DNA of 64,000 nt from Phycisphaerales bacterium (GTDB taxonomy: Bacteria; Planctomycetota; Phycisphaerae; Phycisphaerales; UBA1924): contig JADLCX010000041.1 of NCBI GenBank assembly GCA_020846975.1, forward strand, positions 62,001 through 126,000, read 5' to 3'. Below the pieces are notes generated by a model, which worked only from the letters and a program-made list of their open reading frames with translations, did not search any database and was not told the origin of the DNA. The position numbers and the translations under genes were made by a program. Positions 36,565-53,300 of the stretch are shown piece after piece. Within the stretch, counting starts at the first letter, position 1, and each line of letters begins with the position of its first letter.

Positions 36565-37395
36565 TCACGCCTCCGCCAGCCCCTCCCTGATCGCAAACTT
36601 CATCAAGTCGGTTCTCGACTCGACCCCCAACTTCTTCATCATCCGCTCCTGGTGCCCGTCGATCGTCTTGGCGCTGCGCGACAACTCCTTGGCGATCTCC
36701 ACCCGCGACAGGCCCTTGCCGATCAGCCTCAGCACCTCCAACTCGCGGTCGGTCAGCGATTGCAGCACGGTGGCCGGAGGCGACGAGCCGCCCGCCGATC
36801 GGTCCGCGCCCGCCCGCTTGTCGGCGGTCCCCCCGCCACCGCCACCCGCCGCGCTCGCGCACCGCTGCCTGACCTTCGGCCCCATCACGAACGCGCCCCC
36901 CGTGCTCCGGGCGATCTCGCGCACCCCAGCGACGATGTCTTCCAGTTCGTCGCCCTTGGCGAAGTACCCCCACGCCCCGCAGCTGTACGACGCCGCGAGG
37001 TACCCATCGCGGATGTGCGCGCTCAGGAACGCGAACCGCAACCCCGGGTTCTGACGCCGCATCCGGTCGGCCGTCTCAAACACATCCGGCCCGGGCATCT
37101 CGATGTCGAGCAGCACCACATCCGGCTTGAGTTTCGCGACCTCGTCGAGCAGCCGTTCCGCCGAGGCCAGACGCCCGACCACGCGGATCCGCCCGTCGAT
37201 CGCGAACTGCGCTTTCAGCCCTTCCACCAGCACCGCGTGATCATCCACGCACAGCACGCGAACGCCCGTCTCCGACACGGCCGCGCCGTCCGCGCGCGAT
37301 GCGCCCCGCTTCACCGCCTTGCCTTCGCCCGCGGCGGTCCGCACCGTCCGTTCTCTGCCCGATTGCCTGGCCGGTTGAGTTGGCACGTCGCACAC
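36565..37395 (-). CDS. LuxR/NarL-type response regulator
   Basis: 276 residues. The receiver domain (about 45-165) has the acidic pair D51-D52 and phospho-acceptor D97 in VVLLDIEMPG, then SAHIRDGY and the KG of YFAKGDEL. A Gly-rich linker is followed by a LuxR helix-turn-helix (LTDRELEVLRLIGKGLSRVEIAKEL). The start is GTG 37395 or GTG 37386; the latter is better spaced from GAGGAG. It starts 9 bases after the histidine kinase stop and is surely its partner, in FixL-FixJ style. Confidence 0.92.
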   Translation of the reverse strand: MCDVPTQPARQSGRERTVRTAAGEGKAVKRGASRADGAAVSETGVRVLCVDDHAVLVEGLKAQFAIDGRIRVVGRLASAERLLDEVAKLKPDVVLLDIEMPGPDVFETADRMRRQNPGLRFAFLSAHIRDGYLAASYSCGAWGYFAKGDELEDIVAGVREIARSTGGAFVMGPKVRQRCASAAGGGGGGTADKRAGADRSAGGSSPPATVLQSLTDRELEVLRLIGKGLSRVEIAKELSRSAKTIDGHQERMMKKLGVESRTDLMKFAIREGLAEA

Positions 37396-37404
37396 GCTCC
37401 TCGG

Positions 37405-39075
37405 TCACTCCCCCCAACCCTCCACCCCGACCAGCACGCGCCCGATCGCGGATCGCACCGCCTGAAAATCGCCGGGATTCTCGATCGTAACAGGACCAAG
37501 CCCCCTCCACCGCGCCGCGTTCGGACCGTTCGTCCGACCCAGAACGACCACCCGGCGCTCCATGTTCCCCGGCGCACCCCGCTCCACCCACGCCCGCACG
37601 CGCTCGAACTCCCGCGCACCGGAATCCGTGACCCACACCCTCGCGCCCTCCGTCGCCTCCGTCTCCACCCGCAGCCCGGCGCATTCAAGCATGTGCCGGA
37701 TCAACCCAGCCGCACGCCCATCCGACACGCGAACGACCGCGACCGCCGGACCGCGTTCGCCGTCCGAGGGTCGCCCGCCCCGCGCGGCCGCGCCCGGCCC
37801 TCGCGCCGACCGAACCGCCGGCAGCATCAGCATCACCGTCGTGCCCCTCCCAACGCCCGACTCGATCTCTACCCGCCCCCCCGCCTGGTCCACAACCTTG
37901 TGCACCAGCGCCAGGCCCAGCCCCGTGCCCAGCCCGCGCGGCTTGGTCGTGAAGAACATCTCAAACGCCCGCCGCCGAACCTCCTCGCTCATCCCGCTCC
38001 CGTTGTCTTCCACGCTCAGCCGCACCCATCGCCGACCGCCCGCGCCGCCGTCCTCCTCGACCGCCGCGCGGATGTGCACCATCCCCTGCCGGCGCTTCCG
38101 CTGGCTGGGAGGCGGGATCGCCTCTCCCGAGTTCACGACCAGATTGAGCACCGCCTGCGTCAGCCCGTGCACCGCCACCGCGACACGCGGCAGCCCGCGC
38201 GGGATCGATGCCGACACCCGCACGTGCCTGGGCACCGATTTCGAGAGCAGCACGCCCGTCTGACCCCACCACTCGTGCAGGTCCGTCACGCTTCTCTCGC
38301 CGCCCCCGCGCGCGGCCGCCTCGGCCTCCGGGTCCAGCGCCAGGAAGTGCAGCCCGTCGGCGAGCTGTTGAAGGTACGCCACGCTCTTGCGCACCTCGTC
38401 AACGTGCTCCCGCTCCGCCGTGCCCAGCCGACCTCGCTCGCCCGCCGCCCGCAGCGCGTTCAACCTCGCCCGCACCGGCAGCAGCACGTTGTTCATGTCG
38501 TGCCCCAGCCCCGCCGCCAGCGTGCCGATCGACGCCATCCGGTCCGCCATCCGCAGCCGTGCGTGCGCGGTGTGCAGCGCCGTCGTCTGCTCCGCAAGCA
38601 GCCGCTCCGAGCGCACACGCTCCTCTTCCTGGCTCCTCTCCGCCGCCACGAACTCGCTGATGTCGCGGATGATCCCCACGAACAGCGGCGGACCGCCCGA
38701 TACCTCCGCTCGCGACACGCACAACTCGATCGGAAGCCGCGTGCCGTTCTTCCGCACGGCCTCGAACCTTCGCGGCCGGTTCATGATGTTCGTCAGGCCG
38801 GTCTGCTGGTACTTCGCCAGGTAGCCATCGTGCGCCGAGCGGTACGGCTCGGGCATCAGCACGCTCACGTTCCGCCCCACCAGGTCCGCCGGGCTCCACC
38901 CCAGCACCCGCTCGACCGAATCGCTCGCCGACTGCACCACGCCCCCCGCGTCGATCGTCACGATCGGATCGAGCGCGGCCGCCAGCACGGCCCGATCCCG
39001 CTCCGCCGTGTGCCCCTCCACCACGCGCCCGCCCACACGGGTGCCCGAACCTCGCTTGCCGCCTGATCGACCCAT
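37405..39075 (-). CDS. PAS-domain sensor histidine kinase, FixL-like
   Basis: 556 residues from ATG 39075, with GGAAGG 5 bases upstream. The PAS domain (about 25-150) carries LMPEPYRSAHDGYLAKY, close to the segment holding the haem-ligand His in FixL; H82 would be the ligand. A His-phosphotransfer segment reads LAAGLGHDMNN (H192), and the ATPase has NLVVNSGEAI, VEDNGSGM and GLGTGLGLALVH. The last 100 residues resemble a receiver fold without its Asp. No membrane segment is seen, so it is cytoplasmic. It probably senses oxygen or redox, given the nearby cbb3 operon; this is inferred. Confidence 0.88.
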   Translation of the reverse strand: MGRSGGKRGSGTRVGGRVVEGHTAERDRAVLAAALDPIVTIDAGGVVQSASDSVERVLGWSPADLVGRNVSVLMPEPYRSAHDGYLAKYQQTGLTNIMNRPRRFEAVRKNGTRLPIELCVSRAEVSGGPPLFVGIIRDISEFVAAERSQEEERVRSERLLAEQTTALHTAHARLRMADRMASIGTLAAGLGHDMNNVLLPVRARLNALRAAGERGRLGTAEREHVDEVRKSVAYLQQLADGLHFLALDPEAEAAARGGGERSVTDLHEWWGQTGVLLSKSVPRHVRVSASIPRGLPRVAVAVHGLTQAVLNLVVNSGEAIPPPSQRKRRQGMVHIRAAVEEDGGAGGRRWVRLSVEDNGSGMSEEVRRRAFEMFFTTKPRGLGTGLGLALVHKVVDQAGGRVEIESGVGRGTTVMLMLPAVRSARGPGAAARGGRPSDGERGPAVAVVRVSDGRAAGLIRHMLECAGLRVETEATEGARVWVTDSGAREFERVRAWVERGAPGNMERRVVVLGRTNGPNAARWRGLGPVTIENPGDFQAVRSAIGRVLVGVEGWGE

Positions 39076-39219
39076 GCACCTTCCCGTTCGCCCCCCACCA
39101 CCCACCGTTCCGCCCACACCATTATTGTCCCGGCCCGACCCGCCTCGCACCCACGCACTGCCACCTCGATAGGGGAACTTTCCGCGTGGAGAGAACCGGT
39201 CCGTCACGGCAAGATCACC

Positions 39220-39552
39220 ATGTTGACGACCGACCCGCACAACCCCTCGCGCGGTCGCCCCGATCCTCGCGACCGACGATCGGCGCACGCCCCTCGGCTG
39301 GACCAGTACCTCGGCCCGGCATCCCGCGCCCACGCGCCCGTCCGTCGCACCATCCTCATCATCACCGGCCTTCGCGACAACGCCTCGCGCGAGCGCGTCT
39401 CCGACCACCTGATCCGCGTCCGCGGCGTCCGCGATGTTTCCGTCAGCCTCATGCGCGGCCAAGCCGTCGTCGAGCACGCGCCCGATTGCCCTTTGCAGGA
39501 CCTCATCGCCGCCGTCGCCGCGGCCGGATTCGTCGCGGCCATCAGAACCTGA
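39220..39552 (+). CDS. HMA-fold protein without the CxxC metal site
   Basis: 110 residues. After a disordered 40-residue N-terminus, RTILIITGLRDNASRERVSD, GVRDVSVSLMRGQAVVEH and DLIAAVAAAGF follow the beta-alpha-beta order of a heavy-metal-associated domain. The metal loop, normally GMTCxxC, is GLRDNAS with no cysteine. The only Cys is in DCPLQDL. It opens a three-gene plus-strand unit with the CBS and beta-barrel genes, divergent from the kinase. A non-metal-binding regulatory or structural HMA is likely. Confidence 0.68.
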   Translation: MLTTDPHNPSRGRPDPRDRRSAHAPRLDQYLGPASRAHAPVRRTILIITGLRDNASRERVSDHLIRVRGVRDVSVSLMRGQAVVEHAPDCPLQDLIAAVAAAGFVAAIRT

Positions 39553-39585: not shown

Positions 39586-40053
39586 ATGTCACTGGTCAAG
39601 TCCGAACTCAAGGCCAAGGACATCATGACACCCGATCCCGTGTGTGTCACGCCCGCCACCCGCATCCGTGAACTGGCCCTGGTCTTTGAGGAGCACGAGA
39701 TCTCCGGGGTTCCCGTCGTCGATCAGCAGGGCAAGGTCGTCGGTGTCGTCTCGAAGACCGATCTCATCCGCCGCTGCTCCGAGGGCATCGACGACATCCC
39801 CCCGGCCTACCTGTTCGAGATCCTCTCCGAACGCGGCGACACCGAGTCCTCCGCCGAAGTCATGCCCGAACCGCTGATCTGCGTCGATGACTTCATGACC
39901 GAGGACCCGCTCACCGTCGCGCCCGATCTCTCCGTCACCGCCGTCGCCAGGCTCATGTCCGAGAAGCGCATCCATCGCGCCATCGTCGCCGATGCCGAGG
40001 GCTTTCCCCTCGGCATCATCACCAGCATGGACATGCTCGCGCTCATCCGCTGA
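39586..40053 (+). CDS. Double CBS-domain protein
   Basis: 155 residues made of two CBS domains and nothing else: AKDIMTPDPVCVTPATRIRE with SGVPVVDQQGKVVGVVSKTDL, then DFMTEDPLTVAPDLSVTAVA with LGIITSMDMLALI. Such stand-alone pairs bind adenine nucleotides and act as energy sensors. The gene lies 33 bases after the HMA-like gene. Confidence 0.9.
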   Translation: MSLVKSELKAKDIMTPDPVCVTPATRIRELALVFEEHEISGVPVVDQQGKVVGVVSKTDLIRRCSEGIDDIPPAYLFEILSERGDTESSAEVMPEPLICVDDFMTEDPLTVAPDLSVTAVARLMSEKRIHRAIVADAEGFPLGIITSMDMLALIR

Positions 40054-40132: not shown

Positions 40133-41032
40133 ATGAACACCCGTTCCTCGCATCGACTGGCCGGCGTGCTGGCCGCGGCCGCCTTATCCGGCTTCGCGGC
40201 CGCCGGCACCGACACCTTCACCCTCTTCAGCGGCCGGATCGCCAACCCATCGGGCGACCAGCAGTTCGTCGCGCCGGTCACGGCGCCCTACTACCACGAA
40301 AACTCCCTCATCACCACCGACGTTCGCGCCTGGTACGCCTACCACAAGTTCAACAGCGACTCGATCCTCGGCCCCGATTCCAACGCCAGCGACTACGCCG
40401 TGCAGGTCCGGTTGGCCCTGACCGACCGGCTGCAGCTCGTCGCGTACAAGGACGGGTTCCTCGATTTCGACGGCGCGGTCGTGAACTCCGAAGGCTGGAA
40501 CGACGTCGCCGCCGGACTGAAGTGGCAGTTCCTGCGCATGGATGACGCCCAGCTCTTCGCCGCGCTGGGTGGCGGCTACGAGTTCAACTGGGGCGAGAGC
40601 CGCGCCCTGCAGAACGACGGCGAGGCCCGCATCTGGGCCTCGCTCGACAAGGGCTTCGACAAGTTCCACGCCGGCCTCACCCTCAACTACCGGATCACCA
40701 CCAGCGACGAGGACCGCGACAACGGCAACAGCGACATCTTCTCCTGGCACGCCCGCGCCGACTACCGGCTCTTCGACAAGTTCAGCCCCGTCGTCGAGCT
40801 CAACGGCTATCACATCGTCTCTGACAGCGACACCGGCCTCACACTCAATGGCGCCGACGTGCTCAACCTCGGGTCCACCGACGCCGACGCCACCATCACC
40901 ATGGGCCTCGGCGCCGAGTTCCGCATCGAGGACAACTTCTCCATCCGCGGGGCCTACGAGTTCCCCCTCGCGGACAACGACGACAGCCTCTTCGGAACGC
41001 GGATCACACTCTCCATCGTCTACGGGTTCTGA
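40133..41032 (+). CDS. Outer-membrane beta-barrel protein
   Basis: 299 residues from ATG 40133, with AAGGGG 8 bases upstream. A signal peptide (GVLAAAALSGFAAAG) is followed by alternating beta strands with aromatic ends (VQVRLALTDRLQLVAYKDGF; HAGLTLNYRI; ITMGLGAEFRI). The final residue is Phe in TLSIVYGF, the usual outer-membrane assembly signal. It may be a small porin. It is last in the HMA-CBS-barrel unit and is followed by a clear terminator. Confidence 0.8.
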   Translation: MNTRSSHRLAGVLAAAALSGFAAAGTDTFTLFSGRIANPSGDQQFVAPVTAPYYHENSLITTDVRAWYAYHKFNSDSILGPDSNASDYAVQVRLALTDRLQLVAYKDGFLDFDGAVVNSEGWNDVAAGLKWQFLRMDDAQLFAALGGGYEFNWGESRALQNDGEARIWASLDKGFDKFHAGLTLNYRITTSDEDRDNGNSDIFSWHARADYRLFDKFSPVVELNGYHIVSDSDTGLTLNGADVLNLGSTDADATITMGLGAEFRIEDNFSIRGAYEFPLADNDDSLFGTRITLSIVYGF

Positions 41033-41178: not shown

Positions 41179-41337
41179 TCACCCCTTCCGCCGCGCCCCA
41201 TCATCATCCGGCAGCATCCGGTACGCCGGGGTCTCCAGGTCGTCGAACTGCCCCGCCCGCGCCGCGCGGATGAACGCCACCACCGCACCCGCCGCGATCA
41301 CCAGCGCCACCGGCACCATCACATACAGCACGCTCAT
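41179..41337 (-). CDS. ccoS: cbb3 oxidase assembly protein CcoS
   Basis: A 52-residue gene. MSVLYVMVPVALVIAAGAVV is a single membrane helix, followed by the family signature GQFDDLETPAYRMLPDDD. CcoS is required for cofactor insertion into cbb3 oxidase. It is the last gene of the cco operon; its ATG lies within a 20-bp tandem duplication that also provides GGAGG. Confidence 0.93.
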   Translation of the reverse strand: MSVLYVMVPVALVIAAGAVVAFIRAARAGQFDDLETPAYRMLPDDDGARRKG

Positions 41338-41374
41338 GGCCTGACCCCTCCGTTCATGGCCTGACCCCTCCGTT
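41335..41374. repeat. Perfect 20-bp tandem duplication at the ccoI-ccoS junction
   Basis: Two adjacent identical 20-bp units, read on the minus strand as AACGGAGGGGTCAGGCCATG. Each carries a Shine-Dalgarno (GGAGG) and an ATG. The ccoI stop TGA lies across the junction of the units, and an extra ATG opens a seven-codon frame that ends where ccoS begins. The unit is not divisible by three. Confidence 0.95.
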
Positions 41375-43885
41375 CACCGGCCCCCTGAACGCCCCCGTCC
41401 GCAGGCAGATCGCCACCACCGTGAACGAACTGGCCGGCATGATGATCGCCGCCCACAGCGGCGAGATCAGCCCCGCCATCGAGAGCGCGGCCGCGACCAC
41501 GTTGTACCCCAGGCTCGTCGCGATCGTCCAGTGGATCGCACGCATCGTCCGCCGCGAGCCCTCCAGCAGTTCCACCAGCGGCCCAAGACCCTCGCGGCCC
41601 AGCGAAACATCCGCCGCGGCGAGGCTCGCCTCCGCGCCGCCCCGCACCGCCACGCCCACCGTCGCCGCCGCCAGCGCGGCCGCGTCGTTCACACCATCGC
41701 CCACCATCACCACCCGCTCGCGCTCCGCGAGCGACCGCACGAAGTCCAGCTTCTCTTCCGGGCTCACGCCCGCGAAGCAATCCTCCGACCCCAGCCCCAG
41801 CCGCCGCGCCGTCGCGCTCACAACATCCGGGTGATCGCCCGACAGCACCCGCACCTTCCACCCCCGCGCACGAATCTGATCGATCGCCGCCGCCGCCTCC
41901 GGTCGCTCCGCATCCCCCAGCGCGGCCACGGCCACGCACCGCCCCTCCACCGCGCAGTACACCGGCGACAGCGCATCCAATAGTGCTTCGCGCCCGCCCC
42001 GATCCATCTCCGCCCCCACCTCCACCCAGCGCGACCTCATCAGCGCGAGCGTCCCCACCACCACGCGCCGACCGTTGACCACGCCCTCGATGCCCGTTCC
42101 CGCGCGACCGGCGTGCTGCACCACCTCCATCGCGACCGTCGCATCCATGCCCGGCCCCGCCAGGTCTCGAGCCATGGCCCGCCCCGCCGGGTGCGACGAC
42201 CCGGCCTCCACCGCCGCCACCAACCCGCGGGCCCACTCCGCCCCGCGCCACCAGACGACCGACAACCGCCCCATCGTCAACGTCCCGGTCTTGTCCAGCA
42301 CCACCGTTCCCGCCGCGCCCGGTCCGGCAAGCGTCTGTATCGCGTCCCCGCCCTTGATCAGGATCCCGCGCCGCGCCGCCCGCCCGATCGCCACCGTCAT
42401 CGCCAATGGCGTCGCCAGCCCGAGCCCGCACGGGCATGTCGCGATCAACAGCGCCACCGCGCGATCGACCGCGACGTGCACGCCGTCTCGCCACCAGATC
42501 CCCAGCGTCACCCCCGCGAGCGCGAGCAGCACCCACAGCAGCCACTTGCCCCACCGGTCCGCCAGCCGGACGATCGCCGCCCTCCGGCGCGAGGCCTCCT
42601 CCACCATCCGCATCAGCCTGCCGATCCGCGTCCCCTCGCCCGTCGCCTCCGTGCGAACGCGGATCGTCGAAGCCAGGTTCACCGTGCCCGCCGCCACGCG
42701 CTCGCCCATCTCGGCCCGCACGGGACGCGACTCGCCGGTAAGCATCGACGCGTCGATCGACGTCCGCCCCGACTCGATCACGCCGTCCACCGGCACGCTG
42801 TCCCCCGCGCGAACCTCCACCACCTCGCCCGTCGAAAGAGCCTCCGTCGGCACCTCCGTCACCGCCCCGTCCTCCCCCACCCGCCGCGCCACGGCCGGCG
42901 TCAGCGAGAACAGCAGTTCCAGCGCATCGCTCGCCGATCGCTGCTGCCGCTGCTGCACGAACCGACCGATCAGCAGGAAGAAGACCAGCGTCGAGATCGA
43001 GTCGAAGTAGATATCCCCAACCCCCGTGCCGCCGCTCACCGTCTTCCAGGTCCCCCACGCCCCGCCCAGGTAAAGCCCCATCGCGATCGGCACGTCCAGG
43101 TGGACCGTCCGCGTGCGGATCGCCGCCAACGCGCTGCGCGCAAAAACCATCCCCGGCCACGCCAGGCACACCGCGTTCAGCCCCATCGCCGCCCACCGGA
43201 ACATCCGCTCGATCCCCGGCTCGATCCCCTCGAACATGCCCGCGTACAGCGCGAAGTACAGCAGCATGATGTTGCCGGCGCACGCGCCCGCCACCGCCGT
43301 CTTCACCAGCATCCGCCGGTCTTCCCGCCGTCGCGCCTCACGCGCCCGGTCTCCCCCCATCCCGCGTGCCGGGTGCGCGGGATAGCCCAGCGTGTCCAGC
43401 GTCCTCACCACGCGGCTCAGCGCCACCCGCGACGGATCGAACACCACCGTCACCGCCGCGCGCCGAAGATCCAGCCTCGCCTCCACCACCCCCGGAACGA
43501 CCCGCGGCAACTTCTCCACCAGCCACACGCACGCCGCGCAGTGCACACCCTCGAGCAGCAACTCCGTGCTCGACAGCCCGCCGGCCAGCACGCGGCAGTA
43601 CAGCGCGTGGAACGTCGGGTCGTCGTACTCCGAGTACCCGCGCCCCGTCTCCTTCGCCGGGCCGACCTCGCCCCCGGACCGCTCCAGCAGCCGGTAGTAC
43701 TCCCGCAGCCCGCACGAGTCGATCACGCGGTACGCCGCCTCGCACCCGTGGCAGCAGAACTGCTCCGCCCCGCCCTCACGCACCAGCCCGTCCGGCACCG
43801 GCAACGCACAGTGAGAGCACAACGAACGCCCCGACGCCCTCGCCGCACCGAGCCTCACCTGCGGATGCGATGACGCGATCGACAC
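41354..43885 (-). CDS. ccoI: Copper-transporting P1B ATPase of the CcoI/FixI type
   Basis: 843 residues; exports copper for cbb3 oxidase maturation. The N-terminal Cys-rich segment (LCSHCALPVP, FCCHGCEAAYR) typical of CcoI/FixI precedes an HMA domain with VHCAACVW. Membrane helices, the CPC motif (ATCPCGLGLATP), the phosphorylation site DKTGTLT and the hinge GDGVNDAAAL are intact. The GTG start has GGAG 6 bases upstream and follows the SafE-like stop by 3 bases. Confidence 0.95.
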   Translation of the reverse strand: MSIASSHPQVRLGAARASGRSLCSHCALPVPDGLVREGGAEQFCCHGCEAAYRVIDSCGLREYYRLLERSGGEVGPAKETGRGYSEYDDPTFHALYCRVLAGGLSSTELLLEGVHCAACVWLVEKLPRVVPGVVEARLDLRRAAVTVVFDPSRVALSRVVRTLDTLGYPAHPARGMGGDRAREARRREDRRMLVKTAVAGACAGNIMLLYFALYAGMFEGIEPGIERMFRWAAMGLNAVCLAWPGMVFARSALAAIRTRTVHLDVPIAMGLYLGGAWGTWKTVSGGTGVGDIYFDSISTLVFFLLIGRFVQQRQQRSASDALELLFSLTPAVARRVGEDGAVTEVPTEALSTGEVVEVRAGDSVPVDGVIESGRTSIDASMLTGESRPVRAEMGERVAAGTVNLASTIRVRTEATGEGTRIGRLMRMVEEASRRRAAIVRLADRWGKWLLWVLLALAGVTLGIWWRDGVHVAVDRAVALLIATCPCGLGLATPLAMTVAIGRAARRGILIKGGDAIQTLAGPGAAGTVVLDKTGTLTMGRLSVVWWRGAEWARGLVAAVEAGSSHPAGRAMARDLAGPGMDATVAMEVVQHAGRAGTGIEGVVNGRRVVVGTLALMRSRWVEVGAEMDRGGREALLDALSPVYCAVEGRCVAVAALGDAERPEAAAAIDQIRARGWKVRVLSGDHPDVVSATARRLGLGSEDCFAGVSPEEKLDFVRSLAERERVVMVGDGVNDAAALAAATVGVAVRGGAEASLAAADVSLGREGLGPLVELLEGSRRTMRAIHWTIATSLGYNVVAAALSMAGLISPLWAAIIMPASSFTVVAICLRTGAFRGPVNGGVRP

Positions 43886-43888
43886 GCC

Positions 43889-44689
43889 TCACTCCTTCTC
43901 TTCGCGCAAGGTCTCGGGGTGGCAGTACGGGCACGCCTCGTCCGCCTGCTCCACGAACTCCGCGATCCCGCTCGGGCCGTCCGGCACCCGCGCCGACGGC
44001 GCCGCCATCACCGGCGCCGTCATCCGCCCCAGCACCGTCCACACGCCCGCGGCCACCATCAGCAGGCTGGTCACCAGCGGCAGGTGCCGACGGAGAGGCC
44101 CGGTCAACGCCCGCACGCCCAGGCCGATCGCCCCCATCACCGGCAGCGTGCCGATCCAGAACGCTCCCATCGCCGCCGCCCCCGACAGCGGCCCGCCCGT
44201 CCCCGCCGCTGCGACCACGAACGTGTACAGCCACCCGCACGGCAGCAACGTCGTCAGCAGCCCCACCGTCGCCGCTCGCGTCACCGGAGGAAGATCGATC
44301 GCCTTCATGTGCGCCGAACGCGCGGCGCTCACCATCCATTTCGGCAGCGGCGCGCGCCCCACCCTCGCCCCTAGCGCCCTCGCCACCGCCACCGCGCCGA
44401 ACACCACCATCACCGCCCCGGCACCCACCGCCGCCGCTCGCTGCACGCCGACCATCGACCCGCCCAGGTCCACCGCCGCCCCCACCGCGCCCGCCATCAC
44501 GCCCATCAGCACGTACGTCGCCAGCCGGCCCAGGTTGTACGCCGCTGCCAGCGACCACCGCGAAGCCGCGCGCGACCCCGCCGGGGTCGGCGCGCCCACC
44601 GAGAACGCCGCGAACGCCCCGCACATCCCCGCGCAGTGCGTCGAACCCAGCAGGCTCGCCACCATGATCGTTGAGAGCAGCATCAACAT
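43889..44689 (-). CDS. SafE/DsbD-like membrane protein with C-terminal CxxCH
   Basis: Sulfite-exporter TauE/SafE-type (DsbD_2-like) protein of about 266 residues with six hydrophobic segments. The first contains SLLGSTHCAGMCGAFAAF, and LLTTLLPCGWLYTFV has the second conserved Cys. These genes are often found in cco clusters, and copper import is proposed for some. The C-terminus ends CPYCHPETL (residues 253-257), an unusual CxxCH. Start is ATG 44689 or a TTG overlapping the fixH stop. Confidence 0.85.
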   Translation of the reverse strand: MLMLLSTIMVASLLGSTHCAGMCGAFAAFSVGAPTPAGSRAASRWSLAAAYNLGRLATYVLMGVMAGAVGAAVDLGGSMVGVQRAAAVGAGAVMVVFGAVAVARALGARVGRAPLPKWMVSAARSAHMKAIDLPPVTRAATVGLLTTLLPCGWLYTFVVAAAGTGGPLSGAAAMGAFWIGTLPVMGAIGLGVRALTGPLRRHLPLVTSLLMVAAGVWTVLGRMTAPVMAAPSARVPDGPSGIAEFVEQADEACPYCHPETLREEKE

Positions 44690-44694
44690 CGTCG

Positions 44695-45231
44695 TCAACC
44701 CGGAATCCGCACTTCCAGTTCCTCCGTGAAGCGATCCGTCCCCCGCGAAGCGCCCACGCCCACCCGCCACAGGCCCGTCCGATCAACCCCCGCCACCCCC
44801 GCGTACTCGCCCGGCCGCTCGCGCCGCTCCGTGAGCCGCACCGTCCTCCGATCGCCCGACCGCACGTGCGCGAACATGACCACCTCCACCTCCGCGCCCG
44901 CGATCGGCCCGCCCTCCCGATCCGTCAACCGCACCACCACCTCGCGCCCGCCCCCCCCGCCCCCCACACCCCCCCCGACCTCCCCGATCTCCGCCGCCGC
45001 CTTCCAGCCCAGCCGCCGGCTCACCTCCCGCGCCCGCGCCTGCTCATCAAAGTTCATCGCCTTGCGGTAGTAATCCGGCTCCGTCGCCACCGACCTGTCC
45101 CCCGCCGCCATCGTCACCGTCACGGCCACGATCGCCAGGTTCAACGCGAGCAGCCCCGCCGGCAGCAGCAGCCACACCCGCCCGCGCCGCGACGCGCCCG
45201 CACCACCGGCGTTGCCCGACCGCGTGTTCAT
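44695..45231 (-). CDS. fixH: FixH/CcoH-family protein
   Basis: 178 residues: one membrane helix (VWLLLPAGLLALNLAIVAVTVTMA), the family segment EPDYYRKAMNFDEQARAREV, a Gly-rich stretch, and a beta-sandwich resembling the FixH C-terminal domain. CcoH/FixH stabilises the cbb3 complex and interacts with CcoP. The ATG overlaps the ccoG stop by 4 bases. Confidence 0.88.
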   Translation of the reverse strand: MNTRSGNAGGAGASRRGRVWLLLPAGLLALNLAIVAVTVTMAAGDRSVATEPDYYRKAMNFDEQARAREVSRRLGWKAAAEIGEVGGGVGGGGGGREVVVRLTDREGGPIAGAEVEVVMFAHVRSGDRRTVRLTERRERPGEYAGVAGVDRTGLWRVGVGASRGTDRFTEELEVRIPG

Positions 45232-46754
45232 TTCTTCTCGCCTCCAGCGCCGCCCCCATCGCTCGGCCCGACAAGCGTGAACGGCAGCCTCCGATCGAAC
45301 TTCTCCGGCCCCTTCACCACGATGCTCACGGGCACGCGCCCGGCCACGAACGCGCCCCGCGGCGCGATGATCTGCCCCGGCGTCGTCACCATCTGCCCCG
45401 GCTCCACCAGCACCACCGGCGTCTCGGTCCTGAACTCCAGCCCATCAACCCCCTCCGCTCCCGCCAACGACACCGCGAACTCCGCCGGCTTGTCCAGCCG
45501 GTTCACGATCTTCACGCGCACGCCGTTCTCGATCCGACCGTCCGCCATCTTCACGAACGGCTGACCCAGCCCACGCATCACCGTCACATCCGCCACGCCC
45601 GTTCCCGCCAGCGTGAGCGCAAACAACCCCGCGATCGCCGCCAGCACCACCGGATACAGCACCACCCGCGGCCTGAAAACCCGCGGTTTCTGCCCCGCCA
45701 TCGCCGCTTCCGACGAATACCGGATCAGCCCCCGAGGCCGGCCCACCTTCTCCATCACCGCGTCGCACGCGTCGATGCACTGCGCGCACCCGATGCACTC
45801 CATCTGCAGGCCGTTGCGGATATCGATCCCCGTGGGGCATGTCGTCACGCACAGCCGGCAGTCCACGCAGTCGCCCAGCGAGCGCTCGGCTTCCAGCCCG
45901 GTCCCTTGCACGGCCCCGTCGATCACCGGGAGCGACACGCTCTTCTTCGCCGACTTCGCTCCTCGCGGCTCCCCGCGCGTGTTGTCGTACCGGATGATCA
46001 GCGACTGCCGGTCCAGCAGCACCGATTGCAGCCGGCCGTACGGGCACATCACCACGCACACCTGCTCGCGAAAATACCCGAAGTCCAGCATCATCGCGAT
46101 GGTCACCAGCGTCACCACCGCGAACCCGATCGGATGATCCCACGGCGCGCCGAACACCCAGGTCTTCAACTCCGACCACGGCACGAAGTACGCCAGGAAC
46201 GCGTGCGCGATCACGAACGACACCACCGCGTACACCACCGGCTTCAAGGCCTTGCCCGCCCCGCTGGTCCGCAACCACCCCTTCGGCACCCGCCCCGGCG
46301 CGCCCGTGAAGAACCGTTCCAGCGGCCTGTACACGAACTCCATGTACACCGTCTGCGGGCACGCCCACCCGCACCACACCCTTCCCAGCAGCGCCGTAAA
46401 CCAGAAGATCGACAGGAACACCCCCACCGCCAGCAACGCCAGCAGCAGCGTGTCCGTCGGGTAGTACGTCGCCCCGAGGATGTGGAACCGCCGCGCGCCG
46501 ATGTCCAGCAGCACCAGCGGCCGACCGTTCACCTCGACCAGCGGCAACGCCCAGAACAGCGCGATCAGCAGGTACGCCACCACGCGACGCCGCGTCAGGT
46601 ACCGCCCCAGCGACACCCGCGGCCGGATCCACCGCCGCGAGCCGTCCGGGTTCAGCGTCGTGAACACCGCCTTGGCCTCGCTGGTCCCGCGCGCCGCCGG
46701 GTTGTCGGGCGTCCCGGCCTTCTCCGTGGGTTGCGTCAGGTTCTTCGTGCTCAT
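45228..46754 (-). CDS. ccoG: cbb3 oxidase accessory ferredoxin-type protein CcoG
   Basis: 508 residues. Five membrane segments flank two 4Fe-4S sites (CVDCRLCVTTCPTG and CIGCAQCIDAC, about residues 295-335), with GRVWCGWACPQTVYMEF upstream and an Ig-like C-terminal domain. CcoG/RdxA reduces Cu2+ for cbb3 assembly. It lies 34 bases after ccoP in the operon. Confidence 0.95.
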   Translation of the reverse strand: MSTKNLTQPTEKAGTPDNPAARGTSEAKAVFTTLNPDGSRRWIRPRVSLGRYLTRRRVVAYLLIALFWALPLVEVNGRPLVLLDIGARRFHILGATYYPTDTLLLALLAVGVFLSIFWFTALLGRVWCGWACPQTVYMEFVYRPLERFFTGAPGRVPKGWLRTSGAGKALKPVVYAVVSFVIAHAFLAYFVPWSELKTWVFGAPWDHPIGFAVVTLVTIAMMLDFGYFREQVCVVMCPYGRLQSVLLDRQSLIIRYDNTRGEPRGAKSAKKSVSLPVIDGAVQGTGLEAERSLGDCVDCRLCVTTCPTGIDIRNGLQMECIGCAQCIDACDAVMEKVGRPRGLIRYSSEAAMAGQKPRVFRPRVVLYPVVLAAIAGLFALTLAGTGVADVTVMRGLGQPFVKMADGRIENGVRVKIVNRLDKPAEFAVSLAGAEGVDGLEFRTETPVVLVEPGQMVTTPGQIIAPRGAFVAGRVPVSIVVKGPEKFDRRLPFTLVGPSDGGGAGGEKK

Positions 46755-46788: not shown

Positions 46789-47406
46789 TCATTTCGCGCC
46801 CGGGGCCGGCGCCTTCGGCCACGGCGCGATCACCTTGCCCTCCGCGACCTTCCCCGCGGCCGGCGTCGTCCCGCGCAGGCTCGCCACGTACGCCGCCAGG
46901 ATCACCCGCTCGTTCGACGACAGCCGCGTCTTCCACGACGGCATCGCACCGTTCGCCGCCCCGTCGGTGATCACCTTGAACAGGTCCTCCACCTTCTCCA
47001 CGTTCTTGTACGAATCGTCGCACAGGTTCACGCCCACATCTCCCCCGCCGTCCCGCTTGTGACACGCCGCGCAGTTCGCCACGAACGTCGCCCTCGCCAC
47101 GTCCATGAACTCCGGATTGCTCATCTGCGACAGGATCGTCCCCTCGTCGGTCTTCAACTCCCCCACCGCGCCGAACACCTGCTTGTAGTACGCCGTCTGC
47201 TGCCTCGCCCAGACGTCCTGAACCGTCCACCCGTAAACGCTCGCGTGGAAGAACACCGCGTACAGCACGCTGAACACGATCGACGCGCCGAAGACCCACT
47301 TCCACCACCCCGGCGTCGGGTTGTCGTACTCGCGGATCCCGTCGTACTCGTGGTCCGTCACCGGCCCGCTGTCCGCGGCGATCGCGTCATGCTTACCACC
47401 ACTCAT
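46789..47406 (-). CDS. ccoP: cbb3 oxidase subunit III (CcoP), single-haem form
   Basis: 205 residues. The FixP N-terminal segment with DGIREYDNPTPGWWKWVF and a membrane helix is followed by one class I cytochrome c domain with CAACH (about residues 111-115) and a distal Met in GAMPSW. Standard CcoP has two CxxCH domains and about 290 residues, so one domain is missing. Its ATG overlaps the ccoQ stop by 4 bases. Confidence 0.9.
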   Translation of the reverse strand: MSGGKHDAIAADSGPVTDHEYDGIREYDNPTPGWWKWVFGASIVFSVLYAVFFHASVYGWTVQDVWARQQTAYYKQVFGAVGELKTDEGTILSQMSNPEFMDVARATFVANCAACHKRDGGGDVGVNLCDDSYKNVEKVEDLFKVITDGAANGAMPSWKTRLSSNERVILAAYVASLRGTTPAAGKVAEGKVIAPWPKAPAPGAK

Positions 47407-47612
47407 CTCCGCGCCTCCTTCCGAGCCTCAACGCACCCCGCCGCCATCCGCTCGCCATCCAGGGGCAAGAGCGCGGCCGCATCCATCTCCGACCTCGCCC
47501 GCCGCCGCGTCGCCCTCACCACCGCCCCGATGTACACCGCCAGGAACAGCCCCATCGCCGCGATCGGGTAGATCGCCAGCCCCAGCCCGCTCATCACGTC
47601 CGAGAGTTTCAT
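47403..47612 (-). CDS. ccoQ: cbb3 oxidase subunit CcoQ
   Basis: 69 residues with one membrane helix (LAIYPIAAMGLFLAVYIGAVV) and a basic cytoplasmic tail, as expected for CcoQ/FixQ, which stabilises the complex. It lies between ccoNO and ccoP, 12 bases after the former and overlapping the latter. Confidence 0.85.
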   Translation of the reverse strand: MKLSDVMSGLGLAIYPIAAMGLFLAVYIGAVVRATRRRARSEMDAAALLPLDGERMAAGCVEARKEARR

Positions 47613-47624
47613 GCCCGCTCCTGT

Positions 47625-50015
47625 TCAGTGTCCCGCGCCGTCCGCCGACGCCGCCGTCCCCGCCCCCTCCGACGCCCCGGCCTCCGCCGGCGCGGCCGGT
47701 GGCGGCTTGCTGATATCCGTCCCCAGCCTCTGCAGGTACGCGATCAGCGCCGTCACCTTCTTGTCCTCCAGCCCCGTCGGGCCGCCCGAGGTCGCGATGT
47801 CATCCGCGATCTGCTTCGCCTGCGCTCGCGCCGATTCCGCCGCCTTCCCCTCCTTCACCATCTCCCCATACGGCACGCCGATCATCGCCTGCGCCCGCAC
47901 GTGCCGCGCCACCTCGCCCATGTCCAGCCTCGACTCCAGCAGGTGCGCGTAGCTCGGCATGATCGACTGCGTGATCGACTGCCTCGGATCCTGGAAGTGC
48001 AGCAGGTGCCAGAGGTTGCTCCGCTGCCCGCCCTCGCGCGCCAGGTCCGGCCCGATCCGCCTCGAGCCCCACTGGAACGGATGGTCGTACACGAACTCGC
48101 CCGGCTTGGAATAGTCCCCGTACCGCTTCGTTTCCGACCAGATCGGCCGGATCATCTGCGAGTGGCAGTTGTAACAGCCCTCCGCCACGTACACGTCGCG
48201 CCCGGCCAGTTCCAGCGGCGTGTACGGCGTCACGCTCGCGATCGACGGCACGTTCGAGCGGATCGCGAACAGCGGGACGATCTCCAGCAGCGACCCGCTC
48301 GCCACCGCGATCAGCGACCACACGATCATCTTCGCCGGCCGACGCTCCAGCAGCCGGTGCCACCACCCGTCCGCCGCCTTCTGCAGCCAGATGTCCCCCT
48401 TGTGCGAGAACTCCGTGTTCGCCTCCAGTCGCGACTTGAACTTCGGCGGCGTCTCCACCAGCGGCCTCAGCGCGGGAGCCTCCTGCACAGGCTCCTCATA
48501 CACCGCCGGACGGGCCATCCACGTCCGCAGCAGGTTGTACGCCATCAGCGTCGCGCCCAGGATGAACAGCACGCCCCCGCCCACCCGGGCCCAGTAGAAC
48601 GGCATCAGTTTCGTCACCGTCTCCACGAAGTCCGGGAACTGCAGGCTCCCGCTCTTGTCGAACGCACGCCACATCAGCCCCTGCGTGATCCCCGCGATGT
48701 AGATCGGCACCACGTACATCAGGATCCCCAGCGTCCCCAGCCAGAAGTGCCACTCCGCCAGCTTCTTCGAGTGCAGCCGCGTCTGGAACAGCCGCGGCGC
48801 CAGCCAGTAGATCATCCCGAACGTCAGGAACCCGTTCCAGCCCAGCGCGCCCCCGTGCACGTGCGCGATCGTCCAGTCCGTGTAGTGGCTCAGCATGTTC
48901 ACGGTCTTGATCGAGAGCAGCGGCCCCTCGAACGTGGACATCATGTAGAACGTCACCCCCACCACGAAGAACCTCAGCACCGGGTCGTCCGTCAGCTTGT
49001 GCCACGCCCCTCGGAGCGTCAGCAGGCCGTTGATTCCCCCGCCCCACGACGGCATCCACAGCATCACGCTGAACAGCATCCCCAGCGTGCTCGCCCACGC
49101 CGGCAGCGCGGTATAGTGCAGGTGGTGCGGGCCCGCCCATATGTACACGAAGATCAGCGACCAGAAGTGCACGATGCTCAGCCGGTAGCTGTACACCGGC
49201 CGCTCCGCCGCCTTCGGCATGAAGTAGTACATCAGCCCCAGGAACGGCGTCGTCAGCACAAACGCCACCGCGTTGTGCCCGTACCACCACTGCATCATCG
49301 CGTCCTGAACCCCCGCGTACACGCTGTAGCTCTTCAGCCACCCCGCCGGGATCGCCAGCGAGTTCAGCACGTGCAGCATCGCCACCGTCACGATCGTCGC
49401 GATGTAGAACCACAGCGCGACGTACATGTGCCGCTCGCGACGGACCTTCAGCGTCATGAAGAAGTTCGTCCCGAAGAACCCCAGCCACACCACCGCGATC
49501 AGCACGTCGATCGGCCACTCCAGTTCCGCGTACTCCTTGCCCTGTGTGAAGCCCAATGGCAACGTCAACGCCGCGCACACGATGATGAACTGCCACCCCC
49601 AGAAGTGCAGCCTGCTCAGCGTGTCCGACCACATCCGCGCCTTGCACAGCCGCTGCGTCGAGTAGTACACCGCCGTGAAGATCGCGTTCCCCGCGAACGC
49701 GAAGATCACCGCGTTGGTGTGCAGCGGCCGCAGACGGCCGAACGTCAGGAACTCCGTGCTCACCAGGAATCCCAGGAACGCAAACGGCCGAGACCCCGAC
49801 GCCGTCGTGTAGTTCACCACGCTCGGGATCACCAGTTGCAGCGCGATCACCAGCCCCACCACGAACCCCACCAGGCCCCACACAACCGTCGCAAGCATGA
49901 ACTTGCGCACGATCGCGTCGTCGTACGTGAACCTCTCCATCGACGTCGATTCGGGCCTCACGCCCGTCTGCGCCCGCGCCTCACCCGTTCCGACCGCCGC
50001 TTCCGCTGTGCTCAT
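47625..50015 (-). CDS. ccoNO: Fused cbb3 oxidase subunits I and II (CcoNO)
   Basis: 796 residues from ATG 50015. The first 500 or so are CcoN, the haem-copper catalytic subunit, with about twelve helices and the HYTDWTIAHVHGGALGW and WYGHNAVAFVLTTPFLG segments that carry metal ligands. After a linker with an extra membrane helix, the CcoO part has a haem c site GCYNCHSQM (about 612-616) and the signature FVYDHPFQWGSRRIGPDL. Such CcoNO fusions are known in several phyla. It opens the operon. Confidence 0.95.
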   Translation of the reverse strand: MSTAEAAVGTGEARAQTGVRPESTSMERFTYDDAIVRKFMLATVVWGLVGFVVGLVIALQLVIPSVVNYTTASGSRPFAFLGFLVSTEFLTFGRLRPLHTNAVIFAFAGNAIFTAVYYSTQRLCKARMWSDTLSRLHFWGWQFIIVCAALTLPLGFTQGKEYAELEWPIDVLIAVVWLGFFGTNFFMTLKVRRERHMYVALWFYIATIVTVAMLHVLNSLAIPAGWLKSYSVYAGVQDAMMQWWYGHNAVAFVLTTPFLGLMYYFMPKAAERPVYSYRLSIVHFWSLIFVYIWAGPHHLHYTALPAWASTLGMLFSVMLWMPSWGGGINGLLTLRGAWHKLTDDPVLRFFVVGVTFYMMSTFEGPLLSIKTVNMLSHYTDWTIAHVHGGALGWNGFLTFGMIYWLAPRLFQTRLHSKKLAEWHFWLGTLGILMYVVPIYIAGITQGLMWRAFDKSGSLQFPDFVETVTKLMPFYWARVGGGVLFILGATLMAYNLLRTWMARPAVYEEPVQEAPALRPLVETPPKFKSRLEANTEFSHKGDIWLQKAADGWWHRLLERRPAKMIVWSLIAVASGSLLEIVPLFAIRSNVPSIASVTPYTPLELAGRDVYVAEGCYNCHSQMIRPIWSETKRYGDYSKPGEFVYDHPFQWGSRRIGPDLAREGGQRSNLWHLLHFQDPRQSITQSIMPSYAHLLESRLDMGEVARHVRAQAMIGVPYGEMVKEGKAAESARAQAKQIADDIATSGGPTGLEDKKVTALIAYLQRLGTDISKPPPAAPAEAGASEGAGTAASADGAGH

Positions 50016-50220
50016 GCCCGGCGCGCTCCATCGAGGCTCTGCCCGGCGCGGCCGGCCGCAAGCCCCCCACCACACACCCTCCCCCGGCGGCCGCCGTGCC
50101 GTCGGCGCGCAACCTCATCGCGCGCCGATCACACCCGGCGCGCTCCGCGAGCCCGCCGGTTCGATCGTCGATCGTTGGGCGCACAGGCCGCTTCCTCCAC
50201 CAGAAAGTTTCCCTGATCCT

Positions 50221-50231
50221 CCCCCCCCCCC
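50221..50231. repeat. C11/G11 homopolymer in the cco upstream region
   Basis: Eleven consecutive C on the plus strand, 206 bases upstream of the ccoNO start. Tracts of this length can slip during replication. Confidence 0.7.
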
Positions 50232-50246
50232 GCTCCACTCAGTACC

Positions 50247-50329
50247 ACAACGCCACTTCGCGATTCCGACCGTCAATAGCCCGGCCTTTGGACGCTTGAA
50301 GCCGGCACGCGGAAGCAAAGTGGCGTTGT
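50247..50329. repeat. Perfect 12-bp inverted repeat, 59-base spacing
   Basis: ACAACGCCACTT (50247-50258) and AAGTGGCGTTGT (50318-50329) are exact reverse complements. They lie between the stop of the multicopper oxidase gene and the ccoNO operon and could be a pair of operator half-sites or the ends of a small excised element. Confidence 0.6.
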
Positions 50330-50333
50330 AAAG

Positions 50334-53300
50334 TCAGCACGGCCCGAAGTACAGCGCGAGGAAGTCGAAGATGTCCTGCACGCTCAACCCGCCGCTGTTG
50401 TTGATGTCCGCCGACATCTGATTCCCGAAATACGCGGCCAGGAAATCAAACAGGTCCTGCACCGTCACCGACCCGCTCAGGTTGAAGTCCGCCGCGCACA
50501 ACACCGTGATGAACGCCGAACTCGACACGTTCGTCACCCCGCACGTGTCCGTCACAAACACGCCGTGCCGACCCGCATCCGCGAACTGAATGTTCGTGTA
50601 GGTAAACGCCGCCGCCGTCGCGCCCGAGACCGTCGAGCCGTTGCCCGTCGGGCCATCCACAAACGTCACGTCCGGGTCCGTTCGCCGCCACTGATAGGTC
50701 GCCGGACCGACCGCGTTGGTCACCGCGTCGATCGTCAACGTCTGTCCGCGGCGCACCACCGGGTCCGACGGGCTCGCCGTCGCCGTGAACGACGGGCACA
50801 CCACCGTGAACTGCCGCATCATCTCGTGGTCCTCGTGGTCCAGGATGTGGCAGTGGTACGGGAACGTCCCCGGATGATCCAGGAACCGCATGATCACCCG
50901 CGTGATCTGGTTCGGCGTCGCCTGCACCGTGTCCTTCCAGCCCTGCTCGTTGGCCCCCGGCGGCGTCTCCGTCCCCGCTGTCGGCACGATCGTGTCGCCC
51001 GGCCCGACCGTGAAGTCCTGCCGGTTCAGCACCTGGAACTGCACCAGGTGCACGTGCATCGGGTGCGAGACCCCCGAGCGGTTCACCCACTCCCAGATCT
51101 CCGTCGTCCCCAGCACCGGAAACTCCGTGATGTCCGACCACATCAGCGAGTTGATCAGCCACATGTCGTGGCCGCAAATGTTGTCGAACGTCTTCTGCAG
51201 CTGGAACTGCCGCGTCTGCACCGCCGTCGCCGGGTTGATCGGCGGCACCGGGACCAGCGACGGCGGCAGCGGATCGGTGTCGCCCGGATCCGCCGTGAAC
51301 CGGAACTGCATCACGTTGGTGATGTCCGGACCGTCACCGCCGCCCGGGAACGGCGACACCGCGCTGTTCCGCATCGTGATCGGCCGCGTCAGCACGCTGA
51401 ACCCCGAGAAGTCCACCACGATGTCCGCCCGCTCGCCCGGCATCAGCGTCAGCGAGGTCATCGGCACCGGCGCGGGCAGCAGCCCCAGGTCGGTCCCGAT
51501 CTGGTGGAACGTGATCGGCGCCGAACCCTGCCCCATGCTCAGCGTGTACGACCGGGTGTTGCTCCCGTTCAGCAGGCGGAACCGGTACTTGCCCTGCCGG
51601 ACCTCCAGGTACGGCCACACCTTCCCGTTCACCGTGATGAAGTCGCCGAAGAAGTGGTCCGTGAACGTGTCGTTGTACCTGAGCGCGCCGGTCGATGTGA
51701 ACGATCGGTCCTGGATCACCAGCGGGATCTCGTTGTGCCCGCGCGGCAGGTTCAGGCTCAGTTCCGCATCGTCCCGGAGCAGGTAGAACCCCGCCAGACC
51801 CATGTACACGTTCAGCCGCGTCAGCCCCAGCGCGTGGTCGTGGTACCACAGCGTCGCCGCCTGCTGGTTGTTCGGATACTGATACACCGGCGACTGCTGC
51901 CCGGGCCGGAACGCCAGGTCCGGGATCCCGTCGCTCTCCGGCGCCAGGTGCGCCCCGTGCAGGTGCACCACCGTCACCGGGTCCCGCCCGGTCACATCCG
52001 GCCCGTGCAGGCACTGGTCGATGTTCAGCACGTGCGTGTTCCGCAGCGGCATCCCCAGGATGTTGTGGTGCCGCAGGTCGTTCCGCCACGTCACCTCCAC
52101 CGGCCGCCCTCGCCGCGCCTCGAACGTCGGCCCCGGATACTGCCCCTCATAACCCCACACCGTCGTCATCGGCAACGACGCGTGAAACTGGTGGCTGAAC
52201 TGCACCATGTCGATCGTGTAACTCGCCACATCCCCCGGCGCGCCGCTGTCCGGCACCGCCACGCTCGGGATCGGCAGCGGGTCCTGGAACGGCACCAGCA
52301 CCCACGGGCACGTCACGCCCGCGCACGCGGTGTTGTCCCCGTTGTAGCTCCCGTTCTGCGCATCGCAGTTCGCCTCCGACACCACCACGCACGTCGCGTT
52401 CACCAGGCAGCACCCGCCCGTCAGCACCGGGCACGCCGGTATGCACGTCGTCCCGTTCCCGCGGTAGTTGCCCCCCGCGTTGTCGCACTGCTCCTGCGTC
52501 TGGCCCGAGGTGCACGTCCCGTTCCCGAAGCAGCACCCGCCCGTCGGTTGCGGGCACGGGTTCGGCGCGCACGCTGTCCCGTTCCCCTGGTACGTCCCGC
52601 CCCCGCCCGTGCACGACGCCTGCGTCACCACCGTGCACACCCCCAGTTCGCAGCACGCCCCCGTCCCCGCCGGCGGCGTGAACGTCACCGTCAGTTTCGG
52701 ACGCTCACTCGATGTCGCGTTCTGCCGGCTGCTGAACCGCCGCGCCGTCTGGTTGGTCGCCTCGTTCCCCAGGAGCAGCCACCCGAAGTTCGTGCTCGGC
52801 GTGTTGAGCCACCCCTGCACATCCGCCACCAACTGCGCCGTCGTGGCCCACGTCTTCACCCCCGCCGTCGATGACACGCTCAACGACGCGCTGGTCGTCC
52901 CCGAAAACGTCCCGCCCGCGTTCGTCCACGACGTGGTGTTGTAGATGCGCCGAGTCCACGTCACATCCCCCGCCACCGCCGCCGCGCCCGAGCCGCCGCC
53001 GCCGCCAGGGTTCGTCGGCCCTTCCGACCAGTCCTGCGTCAGTCTGCGAAGCGCCACCGTCTCCGACGGCCCCGAGTTCCCGCCATCATCCACCCGGAGC
53101 GCCAGCGACACCGCCGTGATCGTCGACCCCGCCGGGATCGACGACACGTTGAACCGGATCAGCCCGCGCCGGGCGTTCCCGCCGCTGTTGTTCCCCACGT
53201 GGAAGTACACACCCGCGCCGTTGGCGTTGCTGGTGTTGTCCTCGAAGATCGTCGCGTCCCGATCCGCATTCAGCACCACCACATCCGCGCCCGACACCCC

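Follow-up and report, generated by a model that had tools for sequence, protein, structure and literature searches.

A FixL-type PAS kinase, a NarL/DosR-type regulator and a predicted operator shared with the cbb3 oxidase operon in Phycisphaerales

In Bradyrhizobium and Sinorhizobium, the haem-PAS kinase FixL acts on FixJ, a regulator with a receiver and a LuxR-type helix-turn-helix (HTH) domain, and the FixL-FixJ(-FixK) pathway has the cbb3 oxidase as a target. An Arg at the R220 position is a feature of O2 binding in FixL. DosS and DosT of Mycobacterium are also haem kinases, and the operator of their regulator DosR is an inverted repeat; no cbb3 oxidase is known as a target of this system. 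The DosR regulon includes Usp and alpha-crystallin (PMC6127331), and a set of Usp, Hsp20, and BON genes occurs in the lxa (low-oxygen-activated) locus of Burkholderia cenocepacia (PMC6127331). In the hFixL-FxkR-FixK system of Rhizobium leguminosarum, a FixL-type sensor is combined with a non-FixJ regulator, their genes lie near fixNOQP, and the system works via FixK anaeroboxes at fixNOQP (PMC7888657). Outside rhizobia, the haem-based NmpRSTU pathway of Myxococcus xanthus links its regulator to a cbb3 operon; the sensor is a globin-type haem kinase, and the regulator is NtrC-like, with sigma-54 and a GCGCA-N5-TGCGC site (PMC11841059). Oxygen sensing in planctomycetes is hardly described, and a class-wide genome study of the Phycisphaerae mentions neither FixL nor two-component control.

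Here, we analyzed a 64,000-nucleotide stretch of a Phycisphaerales genome (contig JADLCX010000041.1), which is called the window below and which encodes a FixL-like kinase in the vicinity of a cbb3 (cco) operon. The reading we consider probable is that a haem-PAS two-component system senses low oxygen and exerts direct control over high-affinity respiration. Within this reading, the computations show the identities of the proteins, the FixL-type pocket, the operon, the shared sites, and the association between site and linkage; we infer haem binding, O2 as the ligand, the direction of control, and the regulator as the protein that binds the predicted site.

The kinase, its partner regulator and the cco operon

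The genes and domains of the locus are as follows.

36565..37395, minus strand: response regulator with receiver and LuxR-type (GerE) HTH, NarL/DosR-like (Pfam, PDB search)
37405..39075, minus strand: sensor histidine kinase, 556 aa (ORF and Pfam domains PAS, kinase core, and HATPase_c)
37426..37746, minus strand: degenerate receiver-like domain at the C-terminus of the kinase (model pLDDT 86.7, Foldseek)
38659..39000, minus strand: FixL-type PAS domain of the kinase (profile, phmmer, alignment, Foldseek)
39220..39552, plus strand: heavy-metal-associated (HMA) domain protein, encoded divergently to the kinase (PF00403, E 1.2e-6)
39586..40053, plus strand: two-CBS-domain protein (PF00571)
40133..41032, plus strand: outer-membrane beta-barrel-like protein (below the Pfam cut-off)
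41179..41337, minus strand: ccoS, 52 aa (57% identical to CcoS of genome G046)
41354..43885, minus strand: ccoI copper P-type ATPase (Pfam and profile models)
43889..44770, minus strand: DsbD_2-type membrane protein within the cco operon (Pfam)
44695..45231, minus strand: ccoH (FixH) (Pfam)
45228..46754, minus strand: ccoG (ORF, Cys clusters, syntenic orthologs)
46789..47406, minus strand: ccoP, short form with one CXXCH (ORF and Pfam)
47403..47612, minus strand: ccoQ-like small membrane protein (gene call, position, orthologs)
47625..50015, minus strand: ccoNO, a fusion of cbb3 subunits I and II (NF011053, 1187 bits, above the cut-off)

The kinase is composed of a PAS domain (residues 26–139), a coiled-coil/DHp region (140–246), a HATPase domain (304–420), and a C-terminal receiver-like domain (444–550). 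A structure model of the whole chain (m7ec6690a1d47, 16-row alignment) was obtained with a pLDDT of 79.6, and no transmembrane segment was noticed when the sequence was inspected by eye. The start at ATG 39075 agrees with the ortholog alignments. The upstream GTG 39477 of the first gene call was dropped, because the orthologs begin near ATG 39075 and the HMA gene and an operator candidate fall between the two codons.

The PAS domain contains the segment LMPEPYRSAHDGYLAKY, the His of which is H82 (codon 38830–38832). A preliminary description of this DNA had likened this segment to the haem-His segment of FixL, and the database comparison agrees: FixL (1dp6) was the top match of the kinase among all PDB chains in phmmer, with an E-value of 1.7e-23. 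FixL also came first for a PAS-only query (E 1.8e-24), followed by DosP/YddU and, last, a kinase of unstated ligand; the named proteins among these phmmer matches are haem PAS proteins without exception. Structural modeling, which the same description had proposed as a check at H82, placed the PAS domain 1.4 Å from oxy-FixL 1dp6 over 116 columns, with a TM score of 0.92 (target) and 36% identity in Foldseek. When aligned to BjFixL, H82 corresponds to H200 and R102 (codon 38770–38772) to R220, while the distal triad is represented by I97 (I215), L118 (L236), and V120 at the position of I238. Such a hydrophobic distal triad is a feature of O2 binding in FixL (PMC10765370). The BjFixL propionate contacts R206 and H214 are replaced by K88 and N96 in this alignment, a criterion that we did not take as defining; SmFixL variants at the R206-equivalent position (R200) retain haem binding (PMC10765370). 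The score against the rhizobial FixL equivalog NF041777 was 140.6 bits, which is below the cut-off of 850. By sequence, fold, and pocket, the kinase is a FixL-type sensor, with haem ligation via H82 predicted by homology. Its residues 444–550 form an alpha/beta fold, for which Foldseek gave weak matches (E about 1e-3, TM about 0.6), mainly to receiver domains. The phospho-Asp position of this domain varies among orthologs, and a regulatory or docking role for it is a guess.

A haem-PAS sensor could also take NO, CO, or the redox state as its input, in which case the regulon would represent a respiratory-stress response. The ligand cannot be told from sequence, two haem contacts of BjFixL are changed (K88 and N96), and the CBS, Usp, and Hsp20 neighbors described below are general stress genes. 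However, the R220-equivalent Arg and the hydrophobic distal triad are retained, and the predicted targets include a cbb3 promoter, so that we regard such an input as unlikely.

The regulator begins 9 bp past the stop codon of the kinase, and its true start may be GTG 37344. Its ortholog adjoins the kinase in nearly all of the loci fetched. The best PDB matches were VraR (80 bits), NarL (77 bits), and DevR/DosR (E 3.7e-17), while FixJ scored 39.7 bits. The partner had been described earlier as LuxR-type and FixJ-like; the first attribute stands, as both a receiver and a GerE HTH are present, and the second does not, the FixJ equivalog giving 43.1 bits against a cut-off of 255, over the HTH part only. 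On its sequence, the regulator is assigned to the NarL/DosR-type response regulators. Approximately 7 kb upstream of cco, positions 56965–57861 encode another protein whose C-terminus resembles a LuxR-type HTH; no receiver domain was noticed in it by eye.

The cco operon lies on the same strand as the kinase, 2–11 kb from it, and is complete (fused NO, Q, P, G, H, I, and S). The earlier claim of a full operon thus holds, CcoS included, but the kinase is not directly beside it, as the HMA, CBS, and beta-barrel genes lie in between on the opposite strand. The HMA and two-CBS proteins are conserved partners in the kinase ortholog loci, and the beta-barrel gene did not recur as a conserved module member in the ortholog neighborhoods. 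The CcoP of the window is a mono-haem protein, containing one CXXCH where two are usual, and the CcoP proteins of its relatives are of like length. Immediately upstream of the cco operon, the same strand encodes a large multicopper oxidase that includes a CBM96 domain (50334–53354).

A palindrome upstream of both the kinase and ccoNO

A GGAA-N2-TTCC palindrome is common to the kinase/HMA promoter regions of the Phycisphaerales orthologs. This core was first spotted by eye in kinase upstream regions, and its presence there is hence partly selected. Among the exact cores in 52 fetched stretches, 38 of the 44 are intergenic (2.0 per 10 kb of intergenic sequence versus 0.08). An operator matrix of 26 bp was trained on loci other than the window, and in a second version the cco sites were also left out of the training. 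The two best matches within the 64 kb are as follows.

39166..39191, minus strand: predicted operator 1, CTCCACGCGGAAAGTTCCCCTATCGA, with the core at 39174..39183 (highest matrix score of the 64 kb, 31.0)
50195..50220, plus strand: predicted operator 2, CTCCACCAGAAAGTTTCCCTGATCCT (second-best matrix score in 64 kb)

Predicted operator 1 is located between the kinase and HMA genes and upstream of both, approximately 100 bp from the kinase start and 35 bp from HMA. Predicted operator 2, which has one core mismatch, is 192 bp from the ccoNO start, in an upstream region of 318 bp that reaches to the 3' end of the neighboring gene. The mismatch and the distance weigh against the direct-control reading. 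The site scored 17.9 with the full matrix and 16.8 with the version trained without cco sites, which still placed the two operators in first and second position within the 64 kb; the next match in the window scored 7.7. The chance level estimated from simulated sequence is about 1.3 matches scoring at least 16 per Mb.

When the 77 ccoNO promoters of the order were scored, values of at least 16 were obtained for G029 (29.4), G068 (19.7), the window (16.8), and G208 (16.1), which are exactly the genomes with the kinase-regulator pair near cco (Fisher p 7e-7, in a test that counts genomes as independent, though they are related). They were followed by two genomes with His-type kinases, those keeping the haem His, at 9.1 and 8.6; all others gave 3.2 or less, including 47 without a classified kinase. 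A score of at least 8 was found in 6 of 21 His-type genomes versus 0 of 56 others (p 2e-4, again with related genomes counted as independent). Control of cco in all His-type genomes was ruled out, as most unlinked cco operons carry no site. For the window, the occurrence of one kind of site in the promoter of the switch itself and in that of ccoNO suggests that the switch would control cco directly.

Sites in the rest of the own genome were collected with two pattern searches and then scored with the matrix, a procedure by which degenerate sites can be missed. The scores were 31.0 at the kinase promoter, 23.5 upstream of a di-haem cytochrome c, 17.0 at an intragenic position, and 16.8 at ccoNO; the three intergenic sites above 16 are thus those of the kinase/HMA promoter, the cytochrome, and the oxidase. 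The cytochrome is membrane-anchored (L286:1210-2478 on own-genome contig C35), with the site approximately 300 bp upstream of its gene, and it may feed electrons to the oxidase, because the CcoP of the window is mono-haem. An exact-core search of the genome returned mostly weak sites; the core by itself is therefore unspecific and was rejected as a marker. A sigma-70 promoter scan gave matches no more frequently than chance, and no published description of a GGAA-N2-TTCC operator was found.

The palindrome might belong to another regulator and mark the kinase and ccoNO promoters by coincidence, an explanation favored by the weak matches that are also present in genomes without the kinase. However, the sites cluster at the kinase promoter both in His-type clades and in the clade where Leu replaces the haem His, and the match counts go up with the presence of the kinase (mean 3.7 per genome with His-type kinases versus 1.2 in family members without; p 3e-6). 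The inverted repeat also fits a dimeric NarL/DosR-type regulator, and such a coincidence appears rather improbable to us.

Neither the kinase/HMA promoter nor the ccoNO promoter contains a FixK/FNR box, and no TTGAT-N4-ATCAA box was found in 50016–50333 with up to 2 mismatches allowed. A search of the own genome (95.8% complete) for Crp/Fnr-type regulators gave no PF13545 match above the cut-off and one partial match of 19.2 bits against a cut-off of 27, and 36 other sampled family members gave partial and weak matches only. The same search was positive in 14 of 14 control genomes. In all, PF13545 gave no convincing evidence of a regulator of the Crp/Fnr family in any of 37 genomes of this family (f1). 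Because no such regulator exceeds the cut-off and no FixK box occurs at either promoter, a FixJ-FixK relay of the rhizobial type is unlikely, and the simplest interpretation is direct control. Of the rhizobial logic that had been suggested for this locus, the FixL-like sensor is retained and the link to cco is supported by the shared palindrome; the regulator is not FixJ, and a FixJ-FixK cascade is unlikely.

The direct oxygen control that we favor would operate as follows. O2 bound to the haem on H82 would inhibit the kinase, by analogy with FixL. A drop in O2 would lead to its release, to activation of the kinase, and to phosphorylation of the NarL/DosR-type regulator. The regulator would then bind GGAA-N2-TTCC at the divergent promoter of its own operon and HMA-CBS as well as upstream of ccoNO, and would probably also act on the di-haem cytochrome c gene elsewhere in the genome. 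This binding would raise cbb3 output.

Orthologs, linkage to cco and paralog clades

Of the 301 genomes of the order, 63 contain orthologs or close paralogs of the kinase (E 1e-50), and the named ortholog carriers are Phycisphaerales/Phycisphaeraceae MAGs. The recurring module around them contains the regulator, HMA, CBS, Usp, DUF2934, Hsp20, BON, FolE, CMD, PEP synthase, and ADH, together with a small protein that matches no Pfam family; many His-type copies adjoin CBS, HMA, Usp, Hsp20, BON, FolE, PEP synthase, and ADH genes. A small conserved protein with a motif like DxTHxLVxAIAEELW, for which Pfam gave no match, adjoins the kinase in several genomes (L133:6379-6762; also L109, L110, L113, and L130).

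In four genomes of two families, the window being the fourth, the kinase lies within about 10 kb of ccoN. G029 (JAHBXE010000029.1) shows CBS and HMA, divergent from the kinase, regulator, CMD, and the entire cco operon. In G208 (JADLBU010000123.1), cco and the kinase are divergent, with two Usp genes and CBS in between, and in G068, which belongs to a different family, the kinase-regulator pair is placed ahead of cco. The expected linkage within 10 kb is approximately 0.5% per genome, against which the four cases have a binomial p between 3e-6 and 3e-4, according to the denominator chosen. The proximity could be due to chance if the system were a general stress regulator, as most orthologs are not close to cco, and G003 and G009 carry the kinase but no ccoN. 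Linkage in four genomes and two families exceeds this expectation, however, and the strong ccoNO site occurs in just these four linked genomes, which makes a chance arrangement distinctly improbable. In a Pirellula MAG (L215), a FixL-like kinase of 31% identity also lies about 6–8 kb from a cco operon, with no ortholog of the window regulator nearby.

The haem His is kept in 34 kinase copies from several families, and Leu takes its place in 11 (L066, L067, L117, L120-L125, L137, and L138). The Leu-type copies retain about 46–55% PAS identity and an intact kinase part, and the caution raised in the preliminary description, that the same PAS text occurs in non-haem sensors, was apt in this respect. 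Their distal residues are also altered (I215 to T, A, or V, and I238 mostly to M), and most His copies retain them. No CBS, HMA, Usp, FolE, or cco gene was found in the fetched stretches of the Leu-type copies (0/11), in contrast to about two thirds of the 34 His-type copies, which have at least one of them according to manual labels; because the Leu-type copies form a single clade (support 99/100), this contrast represents one event and one comparison, not eleven. Several Leu-type copies retain GGAA-N2-TTCC sites near the kinase. A PAS domain without haem, preserving FixL text as a remnant while sensing another signal, is very unlikely for the kinase of the window, since the Leu paralogs do indicate that the scaffold can work without the His, but their distal residues changed together with it and the His persists across families. 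Another clade of six copies (L065, L108, L109, L110, L112, and L113; support 100/100) has a second His at the distal I215 position, possibly a distal ligand giving bis-His six-coordinate haem.

Taken over the order, these data are compatible with an oxygen circuit of Phycisphaerales without FNR/FixK, in which FixL-type kinases and a NarL/DosR-type regulator would act directly, through GGAA-N2-TTCC operators, on cco and hypoxia genes, and in which the kinases have diversified into His-less and second-His paralogs; we hold this wider proposal to be evenly balanced. If true, a very well-known bacterial oxygen sensor has been rewired in planctomycetes, where it signals through a different class of regulator and a different operator and is coupled directly to a high-affinity oxidase, in genomes that lack FNR. 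With the predicted operator, the regulon could be tested in relatives that are not in culture, and the clades with His, with Leu, and with a second His would constitute a natural mutant series for the gain or loss of haem sensing.

Comparison with described oxygen-sensing systems

The locus resembles FixL-FixJ(-FixK) of Bradyrhizobium and Sinorhizobium in its haem-PAS kinase, which has the same main pocket residues, in the receiver and LuxR-HTH regulator that follows, and in the cbb3 oxidase as its predicted target. It differs in having a non-FixJ regulator and a GGAA-N2-TTCC operator, with no FixK/FNR box or Crp/Fnr regulator above the cut-off, and its kinase carries an extra C-terminal receiver-like domain compared with rhizobial FixL. 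The hFixL-FxkR-FixK system is similar in combining a FixL-type sensor with a non-FixJ regulator close to the oxidase genes, but no FixK-type relay like that of R. leguminosarum was found here. NmpRSTU shares a haem-based kinase pathway connected to a cbb3 operon outside rhizobia, and is distinguished by its kinase, its regulator, and its site. The regulator of the window is of the NarL type and belongs to the same subfamily as DosR, while the haem of DosS and DosT sits in a GAF domain, unlike the PAS domain here. The Usp, Hsp20, and BON set of the lxa locus is like that of the ortholog neighborhoods, though no haem-PAS kinase is shown as the driver of that locus in its description (PMC6127331). 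The kind of sensor is thus already known, and what is new here is the pairing of a FixL-type sensor with a different regulator class and a different predicted operator.
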